Notes under the pieces: generated by a model
What the model was told of the DNA's origin: nothing
Databases searched by the model: none
The model's input: the letters and a program-made list of their open reading frames with translations, nothing else
Part shown: positions 14,327-47,305 of the stretch, in pieces
Layout of the letters: every line of letters starts with the position of its first letter
How positions within the stretch are numbered: the first letter of the stretch is position 1
Source of the DNA: Acidobacteriota bacterium
Lineage (GTDB): Bacteria > Acidobacteriota > Vicinamibacteria > Vicinamibacterales > UBA2999
Direction: 5' to 3'
NCBI GenBank assembly: GCA_030697165.1
Contig: JAUYQQ010000003.1
Coordinates: 62,001 to 126,000, forward strand
DNA length: 64,000 bases
Program-made: the position numbers and the translations under genes

Positions 14327-14471
14327 ACAGTTGAAAGTTGAAAAGTTGGTAGTTGGTAGTTGAAGTTAAAAGTTTCAGTTGCATTGGCAGTTGGTAGTTC
14401 ACTGGAACTGAAACTGAAACTGAAACTATTAACTACAACTACCAACTTTCAACTCGTAAACTTTCAACTCC
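14327..14471. repeat. Long hairpin of GTTGAAA / GGTAGTT units
   Basis: The 145 bp between convergent genes is almost entirely made of short AT-rich units: GTTGAAAGTTGAAAAGTT, GGTAGTTGGTAGTTG and AGTTTCAGTT on the left, and their complements (GAACTGAAACTGAAACTG, ACTACCAACTTTCAACTC) on the right. It would fold into one long stem. Base composition is far from the surrounding GC-rich DNA. A related run is at 47236. Confidence 0.9.
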
Positions 14472-15503: not shown

Positions 15504-15604
15504 AGTGCCTAAGGTGCCTAGGGTGCCTAGAGTGCCTAGAGTGCCTAGAGTGCGTCGGGTGCACAGTAGGCACCCTAGGCACCCCTAGGCACTTTAGGCA
15601 CCCC
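15504..15604. repeat. Tandem GTGCCTAGA-unit tract with complementary arm
   Basis: Five to six near-identical 9 bp units (GTGCCTAAG, GTGCCTAGG, GTGCCTAGA) run from about 15507 to 15555, then complementary units (TAGGCACCC) to about 15601. The whole forms a hairpin of about 100 bp between moaA and the UPF0182 gene. The same units appear at 36108 (inside a gene) and at 37720. Confidence 0.9.
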
Positions 15605-24299: not shown

Positions 24300-24305
24300 T
24301 AACCT
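24300..24305 (+). promoter_or_regulatory. -10-like TAACCT, 8 nt before ATG
   Basis: TAACCT lies 8 nt before the ATG at 24314, directly after the terminator. Weak match to the leaderless pattern. Confidence 0.3.
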
Positions 24306-24313
24306 TGTCTGAC

Positions 24314-25966
24314 ATGCGTCCCTTTCTTGCCTTGGCCCTCGCGTGCGCCGCTTTGGTCTCCCCGCTTGCCCAATCCGGCGCCCAGTTGGGCCGCGCTTAC
24401 TTTGCCAACTCCGGCAGTCCGGCCGCCCAGGCCGACTTCCAGCGCGGCATCGCGTGGCTGCATAGCTTTGGCTACGAAGACGCCATTGATGCCTTCCGCG
24501 CGGCGCAGAAGGTCGATCCCGGCTTTGCCCTGGCCTACTGGGGCGAGGCGATGAGCTTCAGCCAGCCGTTGTGGTTCTACGAGGAGCTGCCGCAGGGGCG
24601 GGCGGCGCTCGCGAAGCTGGGCGCCACGCCGGGTGCGCGACTGGCGAAGGCGAAGACGCCGCGTGAGCAGGGCTTCATGCGAGCGGTCGACGCCTTGTTC
24701 GGGCCGGGTGACCAAGGCGCGCGGCACAAGGCGTATTCCAGCGTGATGGCCAAGCTCGCGGCCGACTACCCGGCGGACGATGAGGCGCAGACGTTCTACG
24801 CGCTGTCGCTGCTGGCCATGTTGCCGCGCGGCGATGCGGCGCTGCCGCTGCGGCGCCAGGCGGGCGCCATCGCCGAGAAGGTCTTTGCCCGCAGTCCGCG
24901 GCACCCCGGTGCGGCACACTATATTCTGCACGCCTACGATCACGGCACGCTCGCCGGCCGCGCACTGCCGGCCGCGCGCGCCTACGCGAAGATTGCGCCG
25001 GCCGCGAGCCACGCCCTGCACATGCCGGCCCACACCTTCCTCCAGGTCGGATTGTGGGATGAGGCGGCGGAGTCGGACGAGGCGTCGTGGAATGCCTCGA
25101 TCGCGTGGGCGAAGCGGCGCGGCCTGCCGATCAGCAGCCGCGACTTTCACAGCCTGGCCTGGCTGCAGTACGAGTGGACGCAGCAGGGACGGTTCTCGAA
25201 GACGCGCGAAGCGATTGCGTTTGTCAACGAGGCGATGAAGGCGGGAGTCGGGAGTCGGGAGTCGGGAGTCGGCGTGCCCCTGATTCAATCGCCGCAGCAT
25301 GCCGGCGGCCACGGCTATGGCGAGCAGAGTGAGATTGGGCGGGGCAGCGGCCTGGACGCCTTGCGCAACGATCGCGGCTCCATGCGCGCGCGCTACATCA
25401 TCGAGAGCGAGCGATGGAGCGAGTTGAAGGGTCAGTCGACCTTCGACAACATCGAGGAGTTGTTTGCCGTGGGCCTGAGCGCGGTCAATCTCGGCGACGC
25501 CGCCCGCGTGCAGGCCACCATCGCCGAGTTCCGCAACGCCTCGGCGCCGGCACAGGCGGCCGAACTGCGAGAGCAGGCCGAGGTGATGCTGCGCCAGATG
25601 GAAGCGCTCGACCTGTTCGCGCGCGGCCAGCACGCTGCCGCCTTCGCGATGATGGATCGCGCCGTGGCCTTGCAGGCCCGCATGCCCCGGCCCATTGGCC
25701 GGCCGTTTCCGGTGAAGGGCGCCGACGAGTTGTACGGCGAGTTATTGTTCCAGGTCGGCCGCGCGAAAGAGGCCGTCGTGTGGTTCGATCGCGCGCTGGC
25801 GAGGACGCCCAATCGCAGCCGGGCAGTGCTGGGCCTGGCCCGTGCCTATCGTAACGCCGGCGACTCGGCCTCGGCCCGCGCGACCTACAGGCGGTTCCTG
25901 GCGAATTGGCGCCTGGCGGATCCGGGACTACCGGAGATTACCGAAGCGCGCGACGCGGTCAAGTAA
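24314..25966 (+). CDS. Secreted TPR-repeat protein
   Basis: A 550-residue protein with a signal peptide (MRPFLALALACAALVSPLAQ) and helical repeats of TPR type, for example AAQADFQRGIAWLHSFGYED and FRAAQKVDPGFALAYWG near the N-terminus and GRAKEAVVWFDRALARTPNR near the C-terminus. Such proteins are periplasmic scaffolds; no catalytic motif is seen. Around residues 310-321 the sequence AGVGSRESGVGVP is encoded by four copies of the heptamer GGGAGTC, in frame, which looks like an insertion into an otherwise helical protein. It is convergent with the molybdoenzyme gene. Confidence 0.87.
   Translation: MRPFLALALACAALVSPLAQSGAQLGRAYFANSGSPAAQADFQRGIAWLHSFGYEDAIDAFRAAQKVDPGFALAYWGEAMSFSQPLWFYEELPQGRAALAKLGATPGARLAKAKTPREQGFMRAVDALFGPGDQGARHKAYSSVMAKLAADYPADDEAQTFYALSLLAMLPRGDAALPLRRQAGAIAEKVFARSPRHPGAAHYILHAYDHGTLAGRALPAARAYAKIAPAASHALHMPAHTFLQVGLWDEAAESDEASWNASIAWAKRRGLPISSRDFHSLAWLQYEWTQQGRFSKTREAIAFVNEAMKAGVGSRESGVGVPLIQSPQHAGGHGYGEQSEIGRGSGLDALRNDRGSMRARYIIESERWSELKGQSTFDNIEELFAVGLSAVNLGDAARVQATIAEFRNASAPAQAAELREQAEVMLRQMEALDLFARGQHAAAFAMMDRAVALQARMPRPIGRPFPVKGADELYGELLFQVGRAKEAVVWFDRALARTPNRSRAVLGLARAYRNAGDSASARATYRRFLANWRLADPGLPEITEARDAVK
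25243..25272. repeat. Four GGGAGTC heptamers inside a coding sequence
   Basis: GGGAGTC is repeated four times without gaps (25243-25270) within the TPR protein gene. Seven is not a multiple of three, so each unit gained or lost would shift the frame. The same heptamer occurs at 27294-27332, with its complement at 27424-27448. Confidence 0.92.
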
Positions 25967-27293: not shown

Positions 27294-27332
27294 GGGACGG
27301 GAGTCGGGAGTCGGGAGTCGGGAGTGGGGAGT
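27294..27332. repeat. GGGAGTC heptamer tract (left arm) in divergent promoter
   Basis: Units of GGGAGTC (three good copies, then GGGAGTG and GGGAGTG) fill most of the gap between the molybdoenzyme gene and the VWA gene. The complementary arm lies at 27424-27448 inside the next gene. Confidence 0.9.
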
Positions 27333-28643
27333 GGGCAGCAGACACTATACTGTCGTCATGAAGTTCAGGTTTGCCCTGGCGGCCGCGTGCTTGGCTGTTG
27401 TCGCGGCTGGCGCTCAATCCCTCGACTCCCGACTCCCGACTCCCGGCCTGCGCAGAACCAACAGCCCACGTTCCGGGCCGGTGTGACCCTGGTCACGACC
27501 GACGTGATTCCGCGCGACGACAAGGGCCAGTTCATCTCGGACCTGACGGCGGCCGACTTCACCGTTCTCGAAGATGGCGTTCAGCAGACGGTGACGTCAT
27601 TCTCACTGGTGCATGGCGGGCGGACCTTCAACTTATTGCAGCCGGCCCCGGCGGCCGCAGTGCCTGAGGGCATCGTCTTGCCGGCGGCGCGGCGCAGCAT
27701 GGCCGACACGGCGGGTCGCATCTTCCTGATCTTCATTGACGACTTGCATTTCGAGCCCGAGTTGACGCCCCACGTTCGCCGCCTGCTGGAGACCGTCCTT
27801 AACACGCTGATCCACGACGGCGACTTCGTCGCCGTCGTCTCGAGCGGGCCCTCCTACCTGGAAGTGGGACCGACTTACGATCGCAAGCTCCTCGCCGAGG
27901 CGCCCCGGAAGATTCGCGGCTCGGGGTACCTGCCGCGAGAGATCTTCAAGATGATGGAGAACTCGCAGGGGCCAGGCGACATCCGCGCCAGGGCGCAGAT
28001 GGCGTTCTACACGGCGTATGACATCCTGGGCGACATCGAGAAGGTGGCCAACCGGCGCAAGGCCGTGATTTACATCAGTACCGGTTATGACTTCGACCCG
28101 TTTGCCGCGGGCCGCAGCAGCAGCGACCGGGTGATGGGCGGGCGGTATGCCGACCCGATGGCCTTCGCACTGGATGACGAGAACCCGTATTTCAAGATGG
28201 GGGCGGTGACCGCCGACCTCGACTTGCACCGGCTGATGCGCGAGCTGACGTTGTCGGCGAATCGCGCCAATGCCAGCATTTACACCATCGACCCGCGCGG
28301 CCTGGCCGGCATTACCGACGTCGGCGAGTACGTCGACCAGAGCGACTGGCGGACCTACGTGCAGAAGACGACCAGCTCGTTGCGCTACCTCGCCGAGGAA
28401 ACCGGCGGCTTCGCGGTGGTGAACACCAACGACTTTGCCACCGAGCTGCGGCGCATCGACGCCGAGACCAGTGACTATTACGTGCTGGGGTTTTACTCGA
28501 CCAATCCGGACCCGACCAAGCGCACGCGCCAGCTCGAAGTCAAAGTGAACCGCCCGAACATCACGGCGGCATCGCGCCGCGCCTACTCGCTGAAGACCGA
28601 AGGCGCGCCGAAGCCGCCCCCGGCACTCAAGCTCAAGAAATAG
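27324..28643 (+). CDS. VWFA-related Acidobacterial-type protein, 5' end frameshifted
   Basis: The open frame encodes a VWA protein of the Acidobacterial VWFA-related type. It starts with the strand region FRAGVTLVTTDVIPRDDKG, has the MIDAS-like RIFLIFIDDLHFEPE and ends in a basic ...PALKLKK tail, about 390 residues of conserved sequence. The frame has no credible start: upstream codons from 27324 cross a repeat. A good signal peptide (MKFRFALAAACLAVVAAGAQ, ATG at 27358) lies in another frame that ends at 27486. The two frames are separated by a tract of three CGACTCC heptamers. Removing the 38 bp at 27417-27454 would join them cleanly as ...AAGAQNQQPTFRAGV. One more heptamer would also restore the frame. 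Confidence 0.85.
   Translation: MGSGQQTLYCRHEVQVCPGGRVLGCCRGWRSIPRLPTPDSRPAQNQQPTFRAGVTLVTTDVIPRDDKGQFISDLTAADFTVLEDGVQQTVTSFSLVHGGRTFNLLQPAPAAAVPEGIVLPAARRSMADTAGRIFLIFIDDLHFEPELTPHVRRLLETVLNTLIHDGDFVAVVSSGPSYLEVGPTYDRKLLAEAPRKIRGSGYLPREIFKMMENSQGPGDIRARAQMAFYTAYDILGDIEKVANRRKAVIYISTGYDFDPFAAGRSSSDRVMGGRYADPMAFALDDENPYFKMGAVTADLDLHRLMRELTLSANRANASIYTIDPRGLAGITDVGEYVDQSDWRTYVQKTTSSLRYLAEETGGFAVVNTNDFATELRRIDAETSDYYVLGFYSTNPDPTKRTRQLEVKVNRPNITAASRRAYSLKTEGAPKPPPALKLKK
27346..27351 (+). promoter_or_regulatory. -10 hexamer TATACT, 6 nt before ATG (leaderless)
   Basis: TATACT lies 6 nt before the ATG at 27358, which begins a signal-peptide reading frame. It supports 27358 as the original start of the VWA gene. 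Confidence 0.5.
27358..27486 (+). pseudogene. Out-of-frame signal-peptide fragment of the VWA gene
   Basis: The frame reads MKFRFALAAACLAVVAAGAQ, then SLDSRLPTPGLRRTN across the heptamer tract, and stops at 27486. It has the form of a cleavable signal peptide and is preceded by a TATACT box. It most likely represents the true start of the downstream VWA protein, separated by the tract. Confidence 0.7.
27424..27448. repeat. CGACTCC heptamer tract (right arm) inside the VWA gene
   Basis: Three copies of CGACTCC plus a partial fourth, complementary to the GGGAGTC tract at 27294. The two arms could pair across the promoter and signal-peptide region. Confidence 0.9.
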
Positions 28644-28680
28644 GTTCTGAGAGGTTCGGAGAGGTTCGGAGAGGTTCAGC
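28644..28680. repeat. GAGAGGTTCG tandem tract (left arm)
   Basis: About three decamers (GAGAGGTTCG) directly follow the VWA stop codon. They are complementary to the longer GAACCCTTCC tract at 29199-29281; the four-helix-bundle gene lies between the arms. Confidence 0.9.
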
Positions 28681-29089
28681 GGCGCTTCTGCGCTGATCGC
28701 GTCTTGGTCTTTGGAGGCTCTGCCGTTCGTAAGTACCCATGCAAGCGAGCTGAGGCGATCGCGGCTCTGGCAGCGAGGTGACTGAGTTCGGCGTGTCTTG
28801 CCTCACTGATGAGTCTTCGGTCCTTGGCGTCGGTCAAATGAATGCCGACCTCTGCGAGCGAACCGCGTGCGTATTTCATGAACTGCGAGAACTCGCCAGG
28901 ATTAAACCGTTTGAATCCCTCTGCGATGTTCGCCGATGCCGAGTTGGCGGCAGCCCGGATCTGCGCGCAGAGCCTGTAGTCCTGAGCAAACGGGGCCTCC
29001 GCCGATGTCGCAACGATCTGCCGGCGTAGGTCGTCGGCCAGTTGCCAGGCGACGATGTCTTGATAGCGCTTTGCCACGTCGCGGGCCAC
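28676..29089 (-). CDS. Four-helix-bundle protein (23S rRNA intervening-sequence/S23 family)
   Basis: This 137-residue all-helical protein matches the S23/IVS family, which includes proteins encoded in 23S rRNA intervening sequences and the DGR accessory protein Avd. Signatures are YQDIVAWQLADDLRRQI at the N-terminus and ANSASANIAEGFKRF in helix 2, followed by FMKYARGSLAEVGIHL. The start is a GTG at 29089. The gene is bracketed by complementary tandem tracts (28644-28680 and 29199-29281), so a transcript would place it in the loop of a hairpin, like an IVS. No reverse transcriptase or template repeat of a DGR is present nearby. Confidence 0.88.
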   Translation of the reverse strand: MARDVAKRYQDIVAWQLADDLRRQIVATSAEAPFAQDYRLCAQIRAAANSASANIAEGFKRFNPGEFSQFMKYARGSLAEVGIHLTDAKDRRLISEARHAELSHLAARAAIASARLHGYLRTAEPPKTKTRSAQKRR

Positions 29090-29198
29090 AGCATGCCCCG
29101 TACCAAAGTGGCGCGGTCAATTCGGCCCCAGAAAGAGGCTGTCCTGAGAAATGGTGCTAAGTTGTTGCAGGGTAACCTATTCCCACGCGGGTAGCGGG
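29090..29198. other. Non-coding spacer between S23-family gene and repeat tract
   Basis: This short stretch lies upstream of the four-helix-bundle gene and inside the bracketing arms. No gene, promoter consensus or repeat was recognised in it. Confidence 0.3.
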
Positions 29199-29281
29199 TT
29201 CTCTGAACCCTTCGAACCTTTCCGAACCCTTCCGAACCCTTCCGAACCCTTCAGAACCCTTCAGAACCCTTCAGAACCCTG
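29199..29281. repeat. GAACCCTTCC/GAACCCTTCA tandem tract (right arm)
   Basis: Seven to eight decamers of GAACCCTTC plus one variable base run from about 29204 to 29279. They complement the tract at 28644. The last units encode the final residues (LKGSEGF) of the convergent TPR-like gene. Confidence 0.92.
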
Positions 29282-31260
29282 ATCCACTCCGCGGCGAGTT
29301 CCGCATGGGCGCCGCCGGCCGCGATGTACGCCTTTGCAAGGTCAGTGAAGCGATCGCGATCGGTGCCGCCGTCCCGGGCCAGGCGGCCGTAGAGCGCTTG
29401 TAACTGGAGCCAGCGTCCGTCGAGGTCGTCGGGCGCCCTTGCCAACTGGGCCTCGAGCACGGCGAGCGCTTCCTGGGTGCGGCCGCTGGCGAGGTGCGAG
29501 GCCGCCAGCGCGCGCGCCCACGTCCCCTCGGCCGGCCGTCCGCCCAGTTCCGCCAACACCAGCGCTGAGGCCCGCGCGCCGTCCCCGCGACGCAGATACG
29601 CTTCGGCCAGGAAGGGCGCGACGAAGTTTACGCCTTCGTCCCGGGCCGATTGCCAGGCGGCAATCGCATCCGGATCACGGCCCTGGATCGCACGGACCGC
29701 GCCGATCAAGAACTGGAGTGGGCCGCCAGGTCCGCCAAGCGCGAGCGCCTGCTGAAACCGGGCCAGGGCCGAGACGTCGCCGATGGCGTAAAGCGCCAGG
29801 CCGGTCAGCGCGGTGCGCGTGGCCTGCTCGCCCGGTGGCACCGGCTCTTCGGCCAGCAGGTCGATGAACGCGCGGCTGGCGACCTGGTCGAGGGCGCGGC
29901 GCAAGGCCGGCGACGGCGAGGCCGGCGTGAATGCTTTGACCAGCTCGGCCAGCACGGCGTCCGCGATCGCGTCTTCGCGGCGAAAGCGCCGGCCGAGCGG
30001 CGGGGCTTCATTCAGCAATGACAGCGGCGTGCCAATGACGTTGAACTCAACCGCGCTGTGCGTGGTCGTGGTGGTGCCGTGGTCGGTCGCCGCGATATGC
30101 AGCCGGTAGGCGCCGCGGGTCAACGTACCCAGTGGCACCGACATGGCGGCGATCAGGGGATGGCCCAGCCGCACGTCGAAATCTGGCGGCAGGGTAGTCC
30201 TGTCGTAGCGGAGCGGGGTGAGGGTGGCGACCTGCTCCTCGCGGCTTCCCGCCTGCCGGGTGATCCGGAAGTTGACCGTCACGTCGGGTTTGCCGGTGTC
30301 GGGGGCCCGCGCGTTGATCACCTGAAAGGCGAGCGACAACGCGTCGCTGTTGGCGAACACCGCATCACGCGCCGGCCGGATCTCGGTGACGCCGAGGGCG
30401 TAGGGATGGGCGCGCTGTTCGAGGGCGGTGTAGGGCGTCTCGCGAACCGTCACACTCTCGGCGACGACGACCGAGCTGAGCCTGAAGTCGTCGGCCCACG
30501 CGGGCGGCAGGTCCAGCGTCCGGTGGGCCACGTGCACCGGGGCCTGGCCCGGCTTGGCCGCGGCATCGACCCAGGCGACGGAGAGCCGATATTGGCCGGG
30601 CCCCGCGGTCAGCGCGCGCTGGATGGCCGGGGTGCCGTCGGCGAACTGCGGCGGAGCGATCAGGTCGAAGTCTTCAAAGGGCAGCAAGGTCGCGCCATCG
30701 GGCCCGGCGCCTGCCAGGCTCGCCGTCCGATCCCGTTCCTCTTGTTCCTTGCGCTGCCGCTCACGCTCCCGCTGCAGGCCCATGATCTGGAGGTCGGCGG
30801 ATCCGACCGTGGCAGCACCGCCGCCACCAGCGGTCGCGGCGCCCATCGCGGGCATCTCGCCGACGGCGAACCCGCGCCGGGACCGTACGAGCCGCGGATC
30901 AGTGCGCGAGCCGCCCAGCCATTCGCGGACGCTCGAGCGCGCCACCCTCACCCCTGGTGCCGGCGAGACGACGGACAGTCGCACGTAGATCAGAACGCGG
31001 TTGGCGGCGATCGGCGCCGTCGGCGACGAGGCGACCGAGAAGGCGACATAGTGGGAGCCGTCCGAGGCGCGCAGGACGTGGGTTTGCCACGAGTCCGGCG
31101 TCGCGTCGGCTGGTGGTGGAGCGGCATCGACGGCGGCGAGCAGTGCCGTGAGCAGTGCACGCTGGTCGTTGTTGAGGGTGGGCATCGATTGCCCGACGGC
31201 GGACGCGGCCAGGCCAAGACAACAAAAGACAACAACTCCGCGCGCGATCATTTTGTTCAT
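29251..31260 (-). CDS. Secreted protein with C-terminal TPR-like repeats
   Basis: A 669-residue protein with an N-terminal signal peptide (MNKMIARGVVVFCCLGLAAS, then AVGQ). The first half is beta-rich and contains a Gly-rich linker and a short charged helix (RERERQRKEQEERDRTA). The C-terminal third consists of helical pairs of TPR type (TALTGLALYAIGDVSALARF, AEAYLRRGDGARASALVLAE, ARALAASHLASGRTQEALAV). VWA and TPR proteins of this kind are often encoded together in Acidobacteriota; no enzyme motif is seen. Its last seven residues come from the decamer tract. It diverges from the DUF5916 gene. Confidence 0.82.
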   Translation of the reverse strand: MNKMIARGVVVFCCLGLAASAVGQSMPTLNNDQRALLTALLAAVDAAPPPADATPDSWQTHVLRASDGSHYVAFSVASSPTAPIAANRVLIYVRLSVVSPAPGVRVARSSVREWLGGSRTDPRLVRSRRGFAVGEMPAMGAATAGGGGAATVGSADLQIMGLQRERERQRKEQEERDRTASLAGAGPDGATLLPFEDFDLIAPPQFADGTPAIQRALTAGPGQYRLSVAWVDAAAKPGQAPVHVAHRTLDLPPAWADDFRLSSVVVAESVTVRETPYTALEQRAHPYALGVTEIRPARDAVFANSDALSLAFQVINARAPDTGKPDVTVNFRITRQAGSREEQVATLTPLRYDRTTLPPDFDVRLGHPLIAAMSVPLGTLTRGAYRLHIAATDHGTTTTTHSAVEFNVIGTPLSLLNEAPPLGRRFRREDAIADAVLAELVKAFTPASPSPALRRALDQVASRAFIDLLAEEPVPPGEQATRTALTGLALYAIGDVSALARFQQALALGGPGGPLQFLIGAVRAIQGRDPDAIAAWQSARDEGVNFVAPFLAEAYLRRGDGARASALVLAELGGRPAEGTWARALAASHLASGRTQEALAVLEAQLARAPDDLDGRWLQLQALYGRLARDGGTDRDRFTDLAKAYIAAGGAHAELAAEWIRVLKGSEGF

Positions 31261-36046: not shown

Positions 36047-36574
36047 ATGCCCAGCCCCGTCGGACATGCGCTTGGCGGCCTGATTGTCGGGTTGGCCCTG
36101 ACCCCCCGCACCTTAGGCACCTTAGGCACTCGAGGCACCCTGGGCACCATTGCCCTTGCAGCTGTTTTGCCCGACCTGGATTTCTTGTGGGGCCGGCACA
36201 ACATGGAGACCCATAGCCTGGGGGCGGCCGTATTCGCGGGGCTGGCAGTGCTGGCTTACAACCGCGGCAAGAACCCGCAGCTGGCGCTGGCCGTGACCCT
36301 GGCCTGGGCGAGCCACGTTCTGTTTGATTGGCTGGGATCCGATACTACGCCGCCGCTTGGCGTCATGGCCCTATGGCCGCTGACGACGACGTACTACTTT
36401 GCGGATGCGTTTGTGTTCGAGGCGATCTCGCGGCGCTACTGGCTGCCGAACTTCATCCCACACAACGCGTGGGCCGTGATCAAGGAAACCCTGATCCTCG
36501 GCCCACCGGTCCTCTTGCTTACTGCACTTCGATGGCGAGCGCGACGCCGTTCCCGCCGCCCAGGCACAACGTAG
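36047..36574 (+). CDS. DUF457/YdjM-like membrane-bound metal-dependent hydrolase
   Basis: A 175-residue membrane protein. The N-terminus [18 protein letters not shown], then [15 protein letters not shown] and [11 protein letters not shown], follow the family pattern in which His and Asp residues near membrane helices form a metal site. Between the first helix and [11 protein letters not shown] lies [15 protein letters not shown], encoded by GCACCTTAG-type 9 bp repeats in frame, which looks like an insertion. The start has a strong GGTGGAGGG. Its 3' end overlaps the convergent thiolase gene by 56 bp. Confidence 0.88.
36108..36148. repeat. GCACCTTAG-type 9 bp tract inside the DUF457-like gene
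   Basis: Four to five units (GCACCTTAG, GCACCTTAG, GCACTCGAG, GCACCCTGG) lie in frame near the 5' end of the gene. They are the same unit as at 15504 and 37720; only one arm is present here. Confidence 0.88.
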
Positions 36575-37715: not shown

Positions 37716-37719
37716 TCAA

Positions 37720-37859
37720 GGTGCCTAAGGTGCCTAAGGTGCCTAAGGTGCCTAAGGTGGCTAAGGTGCCTAAGGTGCGACCGAGGGTCGTGCACTCTAG
37801 GCACTCTAGTCTAGGCACTCTAGGCACTCTAGGCACTCTAGGCACCCTAGGCACCCTAG
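37720..37859. repeat. Long GTGCCTAAG / CTCTAGGCA hairpin tract
   Basis: Seven GTGCCTAAG units (one with GTGGCTAAG) at about 37720-37780 are followed by a short spacer and then CACTCTAGG-type complementary units to 37858. The whole 140 bp gap is repeat. It ends exactly at the DUF721 gene stop codon. Confidence 0.93.
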
Positions 37860-47090: not shown

Positions 47091-47249
47091 ATGGAGGGCA
47101 TGACCTCATCGCACTTCATCTTCATTCCCGGCGTGCTGATCGTCGGCGTGGTGATCGGCTGGATTCTCGGCTCGCGCGCCGCGCAAGACGCGCTAGCGTC
47201 GGAGTTGCGGAAGCGGGAAGAGCGCGCGAAGAAGAAAGTGGAAAGTTGA
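47091..47249 (+). CDS. 52-residue membrane peptide at the end of the ccm operon
   Basis: A short gene that begins directly after the stop of the CcmD-like gene. It encodes one membrane helix (FIFIPGVLIVGVVIGWILGS) and a charged tail (ASELRKREERAKKK). The last residues and the stop codon fall in a GTTGAAA repeat tract. The arrangement of one helix and a Lys/Arg-rich coil again recalls CcmD. Function unknown. Confidence 0.65.
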   Translation: MEGMTSSHFIFIPGVLIVGVVIGWILGSRAAQDALASELRKREERAKKKVES

Positions 47250-47305
47250 AAAGTTGAAAGTTGGTAGTTTTAGTTGAAAGTTGCCGTGGCAGTTTCAGTT
47301 GAAAG
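47236..47305. repeat. GTTGAAAGTT tract between convergent genes
   Basis: Repeated GTTGAAA and AGTTGAAAGTTG words with GGTAGTT and AGTTTCAGTT, as in the tract at 14327. Mostly one orientation is present. It lies between the ccm operon end and the metallophosphoesterase gene. Confidence 0.85.

Follow-up and report, generated by a model that had tools for sequence, protein, structure and literature searches.

A gene of the S23 or 23S rRNA intervening sequence (IVS) family, enclosed by complementary tandem-repeat arms, was analyzed in a 64,000-nucleotide stretch of an Acidobacteriota genome (contig JAUYQQ010000003.1, positions 62,001 to 126,000; the window, whose coordinates are used below). Gene and arms together probably represent a free-standing IVS-like mobile element, moved as one unit and accompanied by dispersed satellites, in an organization like that of RAYT/REPIN systems. 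The whole element comprises 639 bp (28642..29280) and was missing from the site in all of the testable congeners (n = 7/7), the empty sites that the preliminary description of this DNA had proposed to look for. Its central observation, a gene between inverted tandem arms, is confirmed and general, and its idea of a free-standing IVS-like element gained support from the armed family members of the own genome (8/10), the wide recurrence of the layout and the empty sites. G numbers denote genomes, G000 being the own genome of this focal element, and L numbers denote loci.

The gene (28676..29089, minus strand) encodes a four-helix-bundle protein of 137 aa, with its start codon listed as GTG. In profile searches the protein matched PF05635 (E 4.8e-23, 81.8 bits, curated cut-off 33.8) and TIGR02436 (E 6.8e-20, 71.3 bits, curated cut-off 24). 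In gene orientation, the upstream (5') arm is located at 29205..29280 (minus strand) and holds 7.7 copies of a 10-nt unit, AGGGTTCGGA on the sense strand and reported as GAACCCTTCC by the tandem-repeat listing; a leader, delimited on the sequence, connects it with the gene (29090..29204, minus strand). The downstream (3') arm (28642..28677, plus strand) holds 3.6 copies of the 10-nt unit AGGTTCGGAG, inverted with respect to the other arm, and its end overlaps the stop of the gene by two bases. The best ungapped inverted pair between the flanks was 35 nt long (83%). Flanks of 500 nt each, cut at the ends of the open reading frames (ORFs), gave an inverted score of 36, which was also the maximum of 1000 dinucleotide shuffles (mean 21), so the inverted match by itself is expected about once in 1000; the fact that both flanks are 10-nt arrays is further evidence for real arms.

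An AlphaFold2 model of the focal protein had four helices (mean predicted local distance difference test score 90.3), the fold of the PF05635 and TIGR02436 families whose curated cut-offs it exceeds. In a fold comparison against the PDB the nearest solved structures were 2gsc (XCC0516) and 2rld (BT_0352), entries with five chains apiece; XCC0516 is a homopentamer according to PMC4990558. Avd structures 4dwl and 8ub7, the set including a diversity-generating retroelement (DGR) ribonucleoprotein, were weaker neighbors (E 0.4, TM-score to query 0.63-0.68).

Two-sided arms recurred around other members of the family. In G000 there were ten PF05635 matches, nine of them above the cut-off, and eight of the ten loci had inverted-matching flanks with scores from 41 to 123; mispaired flanks scored 29 or less, save for one pair (score 60) formed by the neighboring copies L003 and L006. 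These two loci (G000:C23:267950-270915) carry related S23 genes 2.7 kb apart and a common 18-nt unit, L006 having an arm on the downstream side only; otherwise, arm units differed between the G000 loci. Across nine genomes of the genus, with 1 to 15 S23 matches each, two-sided arms were found at 49 of 72 loci (48/67 among loci with full flanks; 73 matches were listed, and one overlapping L044 was dropped). Mispaired flanks reached the threshold in 29 of 1260 cases for the first 36 genus loci, 23 of which reached it with their own partner, and random 300-bp intervals from three genus genomes had flanks scoring at least 35 in 20 of 2820 cases, a null that applies to the genus only. Arms were likewise detected at 26/30 loci of a phylum sample (mispaired 16/870; 30 loci fetched out of many matches, best score first), at 60/80 loci of named genomes from many phyla (mispaired 558/6320; the best 80 of 526 loci by score) and, at threshold, at 9/12 loci on cyanobacterial plasmids (mispaired 8/132; 12 of 25 records found). 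The titles of the cross-phylum records include Acidobacteria, Verrucomicrobia, Planctomycete groups, Chloroflexi, Proteobacteria, Clostridia, Flavobacteriaceae, Synergistaceae, Fibrobacter, Omnitrophota and Kaiserbacteria. Loci nearly duplicated by their arms (L193/L196, L262/L268, L266/L272 and L311/L313) were each counted. One query for S23 in phage records gave no match.

The element has a common form. Arms of the cross-phylum loci had a period of 7, 14 or 21 in 59 of 60 cases, with a median aligned length in those 59 loci of 31 nt, equal to 4.4 heptamers. Units varied between loci, 7 nt being frequent, and the cross-phylum consensus of the upstream arm on the sense strand was approximately AGTGRNN, with figures inflated by a phase picked towards AGTG. 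The whole element had a median of 471 bp, with medians of 26 nt from the upstream arm to the ATG (50 loci with an ATG found) and 10.5 nt from the stop to the downstream arm. A pentamer-to-unit register was considered; since arms in the genus were longer (median 58 nt vs 31 nt), five units per arm do not hold as a rule.

Comparison of filled and empty sites showed that the elements had been inserted. When the genus was searched at the DNA level for the focal site, the two neighboring genes were adjacent to each other and free of the element in G001, G002 and G004-G008, and the contig of G003 ends there; in G002, where they are convergent, their ends lie no more than a few bases apart. In the window, the stop codon of the left host gene (27324..28643, plus strand) abuts the element, the left arm starting at this codon (ORF end 28643). 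The last codons and the stop of the right host gene (29251..31260, minus strand) now lie within the right arm, which supplies the stop, and its original last codons were lost in G000, as judged from the C-terminus in congeners. The location of the gene between two protein genes and outside rRNA, as previously described, was thereby verified, and no rRNA was detected in the 64-kb window. The L007 element, arms and gene, was missing in G001, G003, G006 and G007; its site in G002 had another right neighbor and no arms, and the site was not judgeable in G004 and G005. In G008 the element was present with a 144-bp deletion within the S23 gene, between the arms (L345/L353).

Plasmid records lacking the element were found for four cyanobacterial loci (L365, L367, L370 and L371), the flanks being 85-97% identical and the insertions 408-516 nt long. 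The filled and empty pairs comprised Picosynechococcus sp. PCC 7003 vs PCC 7002 and Nostoc edaphicum vs Calothrix NIES-4105, together with three comparisons for each of two Nostoc plasmid sites. At L365, on a Nostoc plasmid, an S23 element separates nrdB from nrdA, a pair that is uninterrupted in the Calothrix plasmid. Wherever an allele lacked the gene at the focal site, L007 or these four plasmid sites, the arms were absent too. Two S23 genes on cyanobacterial plasmids were located between cas6 and cas4 (L364 and L369), and a third between cas10 and cmr3 (L370, with a sub-threshold arm score of 29 and an octamer in both flanks); these positions may explain why the family has been reported from cas loci (PMC3936711). 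L364, from Anabaena sp. 90, was rejected as an empty-site pair with Dolichospermum because other sequence fills the place.

Palindromes resembling GCAG..CTGC were observed in the leaders of L007, L009, L020, L116, L120 and L124, and similar ones at the L007 empty sites (L346-L350). The palindrome was discarded as a signature of the element: the strict motif was enriched in leaders, being present in three of the 49 (together about 7 kb) vs 6 times in 464 kb, but similar palindromes were also present at the L007 empty sites.

The association between protein lineage and arm unit was evaluated for the 49 genus loci, out of 72, that had two-sided arms. Protein and arm similarity were correlated (Mantel test, Spearman 0.29, 0/2000 permutations). 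Among pairs at non-homologous sites the unit was common to 23 of 58 with a protein identity of at least 0.5, to 4 of 67 at 0.4-0.5 and to 2 of 1038 below 0.4, so that by comparison the unit travels with the protein. No antisense arm matches were found among pairs with a protein identity of at least 0.4, indicating that the orientation of the unit is fixed relative to the gene. For elements with a clear period, the period was equal in 17/24 pairs at an identity of at least 0.5 vs 109/474 below 0.4. In seven of ten homologous-site pairs both within-locus arm scores were above both between-locus scores, suggesting concerted change of the two arms, and this result was favored by all of those loci having been chosen for their within-locus score.

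Satellites without a gene also appeared to be genome-specific in the comparison. The focal unit pattern was found in two of nine genus genomes, G000 and G007, the other seven and a reversed-pattern control giving none. In G000 it was restricted to the two focal arms; in G007 it was present in a gene-bearing copy (L036) and at 18 gene-less places, some of them hairpins of back-to-back arms and others single arrays. L036 is the nearest genus homologue of the focal protein (65% identity, the next best having 49%). Dispersed gene-less repeats thus belong to the focal unit family in G007 and to other units in G000. Arrays taken from random stretches of G000, G007 and G005 were compared with 35 elements with two-sided arms, those of the GxxExxY family (see below) being from G000 only; 97 of 236 arrays matched an element of their own genome, a number reached in 0/5000 shufflings of the genome labels (59.8 +/- 10.7, maximum 95). 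With S23 elements alone there were 95 matches vs 57.0 +/- 11.0 in the shuffled data (0/5000).

Several gene-less arrays were located in the window itself. A hairpin with a GGTGCCTA-type unit (15504..15604) matched the arms of L007 from the same genome, as did a hairpin (37718..37859) and a single array (36108..36148) of the GGTGCC family. Arrays of AGTTGAA/ACTGAA (14329..14427) and of GAAAGTT (47234..47283) matched the arms of L009, also from G000. CGGGAGT/CGACTCC arrays, with at least 29 matches in G000, were found at 25242-25272, 27298-27332 and 27423-27445, one of them within the ORF at 24305-25966. Many further matches to the arms of L345/L353 were observed in G008, where L345/L353 is perhaps a decayed master copy.

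The S23 protein itself appears to be under purifying selection, as judged by comparison. No internal stops were found in the matched part of the 72 genus genes, and the ratio of nonsynonymous to synonymous differences (pN/pS) was 0.07-0.34 across 13 gene pairs (uncorrected; pS 0.44-0.80); the protein thus seems to be maintained despite its patchy insertions. For comparative evidence, the layout of the element, its recurrence, its insertions and the link between protein lineage and unit can be considered solid.

Several observations weigh against a mobile element of this kind. Armless relatives, which the preliminary description had regarded as a sign of chance association, were a minority: most members have arms, and 23/72 genus loci miss the two-sided threshold, L006 having one arm and L010 none. 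Mispaired matches were frequent across phyla (558/6320) and present on plasmids (8/132), since heptamers resemble one another. Of the 58 protein pairs with an identity of at least 0.5 at non-homologous sites, 35 had no common unit at threshold, and the frequent GGGAGTC family of G000 had no master among the S23 and GxxExxY elements found there. The L007 empty sites of the congeners may not be pristine, since they hold palindromes resembling part of the L007 leader. Lastly, no consistent target-site duplication was found: eight clean comparisons of plasmid elements gave overlaps of 3 and 10 nt and, in six cases, gaps of 7-32 nt. The elements have the terminal inverted repeats of a miniature inverted-repeat transposable element (MITE) or DDE transposon, and these comparisons yielded no target-site duplication of fixed length, which argues against a standard DDE reaction.

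Alternatively, the arrays could be independent simple repeats, for instance spread or grown by slippage, inside which the S23 gene merely prefers to land. Such an origin would accommodate the 139 of 236 arrays without a matching element in the genome that carries them (some of them, by their period, perhaps coding repeats), the single arrays without a mirror arm, and the differing units and fast change of the arms at homologous sites. It is nevertheless unlikely, because the same unit in the same orientation often accompanies related proteins even where their genomes differ and their sites are unrelated, because the gene-less alleles at the focal site, L007 and the four plasmid sites have no arms, and because the common heptamer form of the arms is kept across phyla.

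A second alternative is an element acting at the RNA level, excised by RNase III as in 23S IVSs and returned by reverse transcription, with the S23 protein acting like Avd. The fold neighbors of the focal model, which include Avd and the DGR ribonucleoprotein, are consistent with it, as are the fixed orientation of unit and gene, which fits a stranded target (RNA or single-stranded DNA), and the RNase III-excised 23S IVS of Coxiella, with its tandem heptamers before the S23 gene (PMC4990558). It is assigned very little probability, since no match to the reverse transcriptase family PF00078 was found in the own genome and an RNA step is unneeded for gene-less satellites and single arrays. A third possibility, a normal host gene bordered on either side by hairpins of the terminator or stability type, has hardly any probability: the arms are at the gene ends and pair in a predicted RNA fold (without shuffle control), and the hairpins of cyanobacterial short tandemly repeated repetitive sequences (STRRs) have been read as possible transcript stabilizers (PMC2670836), but the presence is species-specific, with empty sites and 1 to 15 matches per genus genome, protein and unit are coupled, and S23 genes interrupt cas loci and the nrdB-nrdA pair.

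For the IVS-like mobile element, the following plan can be proposed. It would consist of an arm, a short leader, the S23 gene and a second arm, about 640 bp here and about 470 bp in the commonest form, with gene and arms inherited and moved together. It would enter intergenic gaps, sparing or re-supplying stop and start codons, and would be accompanied elsewhere in the genome by gene-less satellites, either hairpins or single arrays of its unit. Three observations, namely the coupling, the constant orientation of the unit and the pentameric state of the solved relatives, suggest binding of the protein to its own arm unit, either in one strand or in the duplex; we infer that the protein may thereby mark copies for dispersal and so drive their mobility. 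The S23 family is not known to have a catalytic site; this and the lack of a reverse transcriptase match suggest that cutting and joining would be carried out by something else, presumably host or other enzymes. In DNA, the arms would act as terminal inverted repeats composed of binding sites in tandem; in RNA, they would form the stem of an IVS-like hairpin. The earlier suggestion that the protein may handle such hairpin arms received indirect support from the coupling of protein and unit.

The elements share with 23S rRNA IVSs the protein family, complementary ends around an ORF and a similar size: the Coxiella IVS has 428 nt, is excised by RNase III and carries tandem GACAGAT heptamers before the S23p ORF (PMC4990558). 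They differ in being located between protein genes, with no rRNA around the 80 cross-phylum relatives (up to 2 kb per side, less at contig ends), and in having tandem units in both arms, satellites, and a unit that tracks the protein lineage. An IVS in the own 23S gene, which the preliminary description had proposed to search for, was not found: the assembled part (model positions 15-2044) has 2091 bases for 2030 positions and holds no IVS-sized insert. S23 genes have been described in rRNA insertions of Candidate Phyla Radiation bacteria (PMC11270868), and the legend to a figure in a CRISPR survey names them 23S rRNA IVP (PMC10910872).

In organization, the nearest analogue seems to be RAYT/REPIN, where a gene is tied to a repeat family that is also dispersed as inverted doublets (PMC3116915). 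RAYTs are Y1 (HUH) transposases and REPs are palindromes, whereas S23 elements have a four-helix bundle, with PF05635 as the sole Pfam match of the focal protein, and arrays of tandem units. Avd has a similar fold (4dwl_D, TM-score to query 0.68, E 0.4), but it is linked to a reverse transcriptase, for which the own genome had no PF00078 match. Heptameric repeats are known from several bacteria. Cyanobacterial STRRs are 7-bp tandem repeats between genes, partly paired in hairpins (PMC2670836); 70 and 75 inverted pairs of heptameric repeats were counted in two Xanthomonas genomes, and the Xanthomonas and Nostoc heptamers generally showed no association with mobile elements (PMC4692102). The host of XCC0516 is a Xanthomonas for which GGGAATC arrays have been published. 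Tandem heptamers are also found in the tRNA-Leu intron of Nostoc (PMC3488679) and in Beggiatoaceae (PMC4679880). The excerpts of PMC2670836 and PMC4692102 do not name a cognate protein gene for these repeats, whereas the plasmid S23 genes described here are flanked by heptamers of the general STRR kind, a likeness of general form only. No report of a link between such arrays and S23 or GxxExxY genes was found in open PMC articles, subscription papers and bioRxiv being outside the search.

Other protein families were checked for similar flanks. GxxExxY genes (PDDEXK_3; PF13366, TIGR04256) had an S23-like layout: two-sided inverted flanks were found at 5/8 loci in G000 (L011-L018) and, at threshold, at 23/30 loci of a phylum sample taken best score first (within L295-L323; mispaired 40/870). 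Their protein is unrelated to S23, with a nuclease fold by family name, and their units differ, most arms holding roughly three copies of a unit of 8-10 nt, for example CACAGAGGA, CACGAAGGA or CGCAGATTA. A GxxExxY expansion in G105 (40 matches, L324-L343) was set aside: the fetched copies were a dispersed repeat of about 1.4 kb with a GxxExxY fragment, and are thus not evidence for arm-driven movement; this repeat, in many near-identical copies, is probably an insertion sequence that captured the fragment. Six Y1_Tnp (RAYT-like) genes were found in G000 (L139-L144), four with inverted flanks scoring 55-82; as hidden movers of the arrays they were rejected, only L140 having a 15-nt unit and the units of L142 being 34-36 nt. 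Two distinct repeat-plus-protein systems, Y1 and S23, may therefore coexist in G000. DUF559, considered as a third partner family, had no match in the own genome.

It is conceivable, with a probability somewhat short of even, that the S23 elements belong to a bacterium-wide class of transposase-less mobile elements, in which each S23 lineage reads, spreads and homogenizes arrays of its own unit, and from which orphan heptamers, IVSs and cas insertions are derived. If so, perhaps one subunit of the pentamer would correspond to each unit along one arm strand, an arm of the commonest form having 4 to 5 units, and many orphan heptamers, such as the cyanobacterial STRRs and the GGGAATC arrays of Xanthomonas, would be satellites of S23 elements. 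The 23S IVSs would then be the subset that landed in rRNA, the S23 genes in cas loci would be insertions, and the GxxExxY elements would follow the same strategy as a second branch, one based on a nuclease.

Taken as a mobile element, the S23 element suggests an overlooked kind. A protein family so far known chiefly as a passenger in fragmented 23S rRNA would thereby acquire a function, and the origin of many intergenic tandem repeats of bacteria, as well as the presence of S23 genes in cas operons, would be explained. Two old questions, what the S23 protein binds and how IVSs spread without a transposase, would become testable, and the many natural pairs of protein and unit would offer a recognition code to be read from them.
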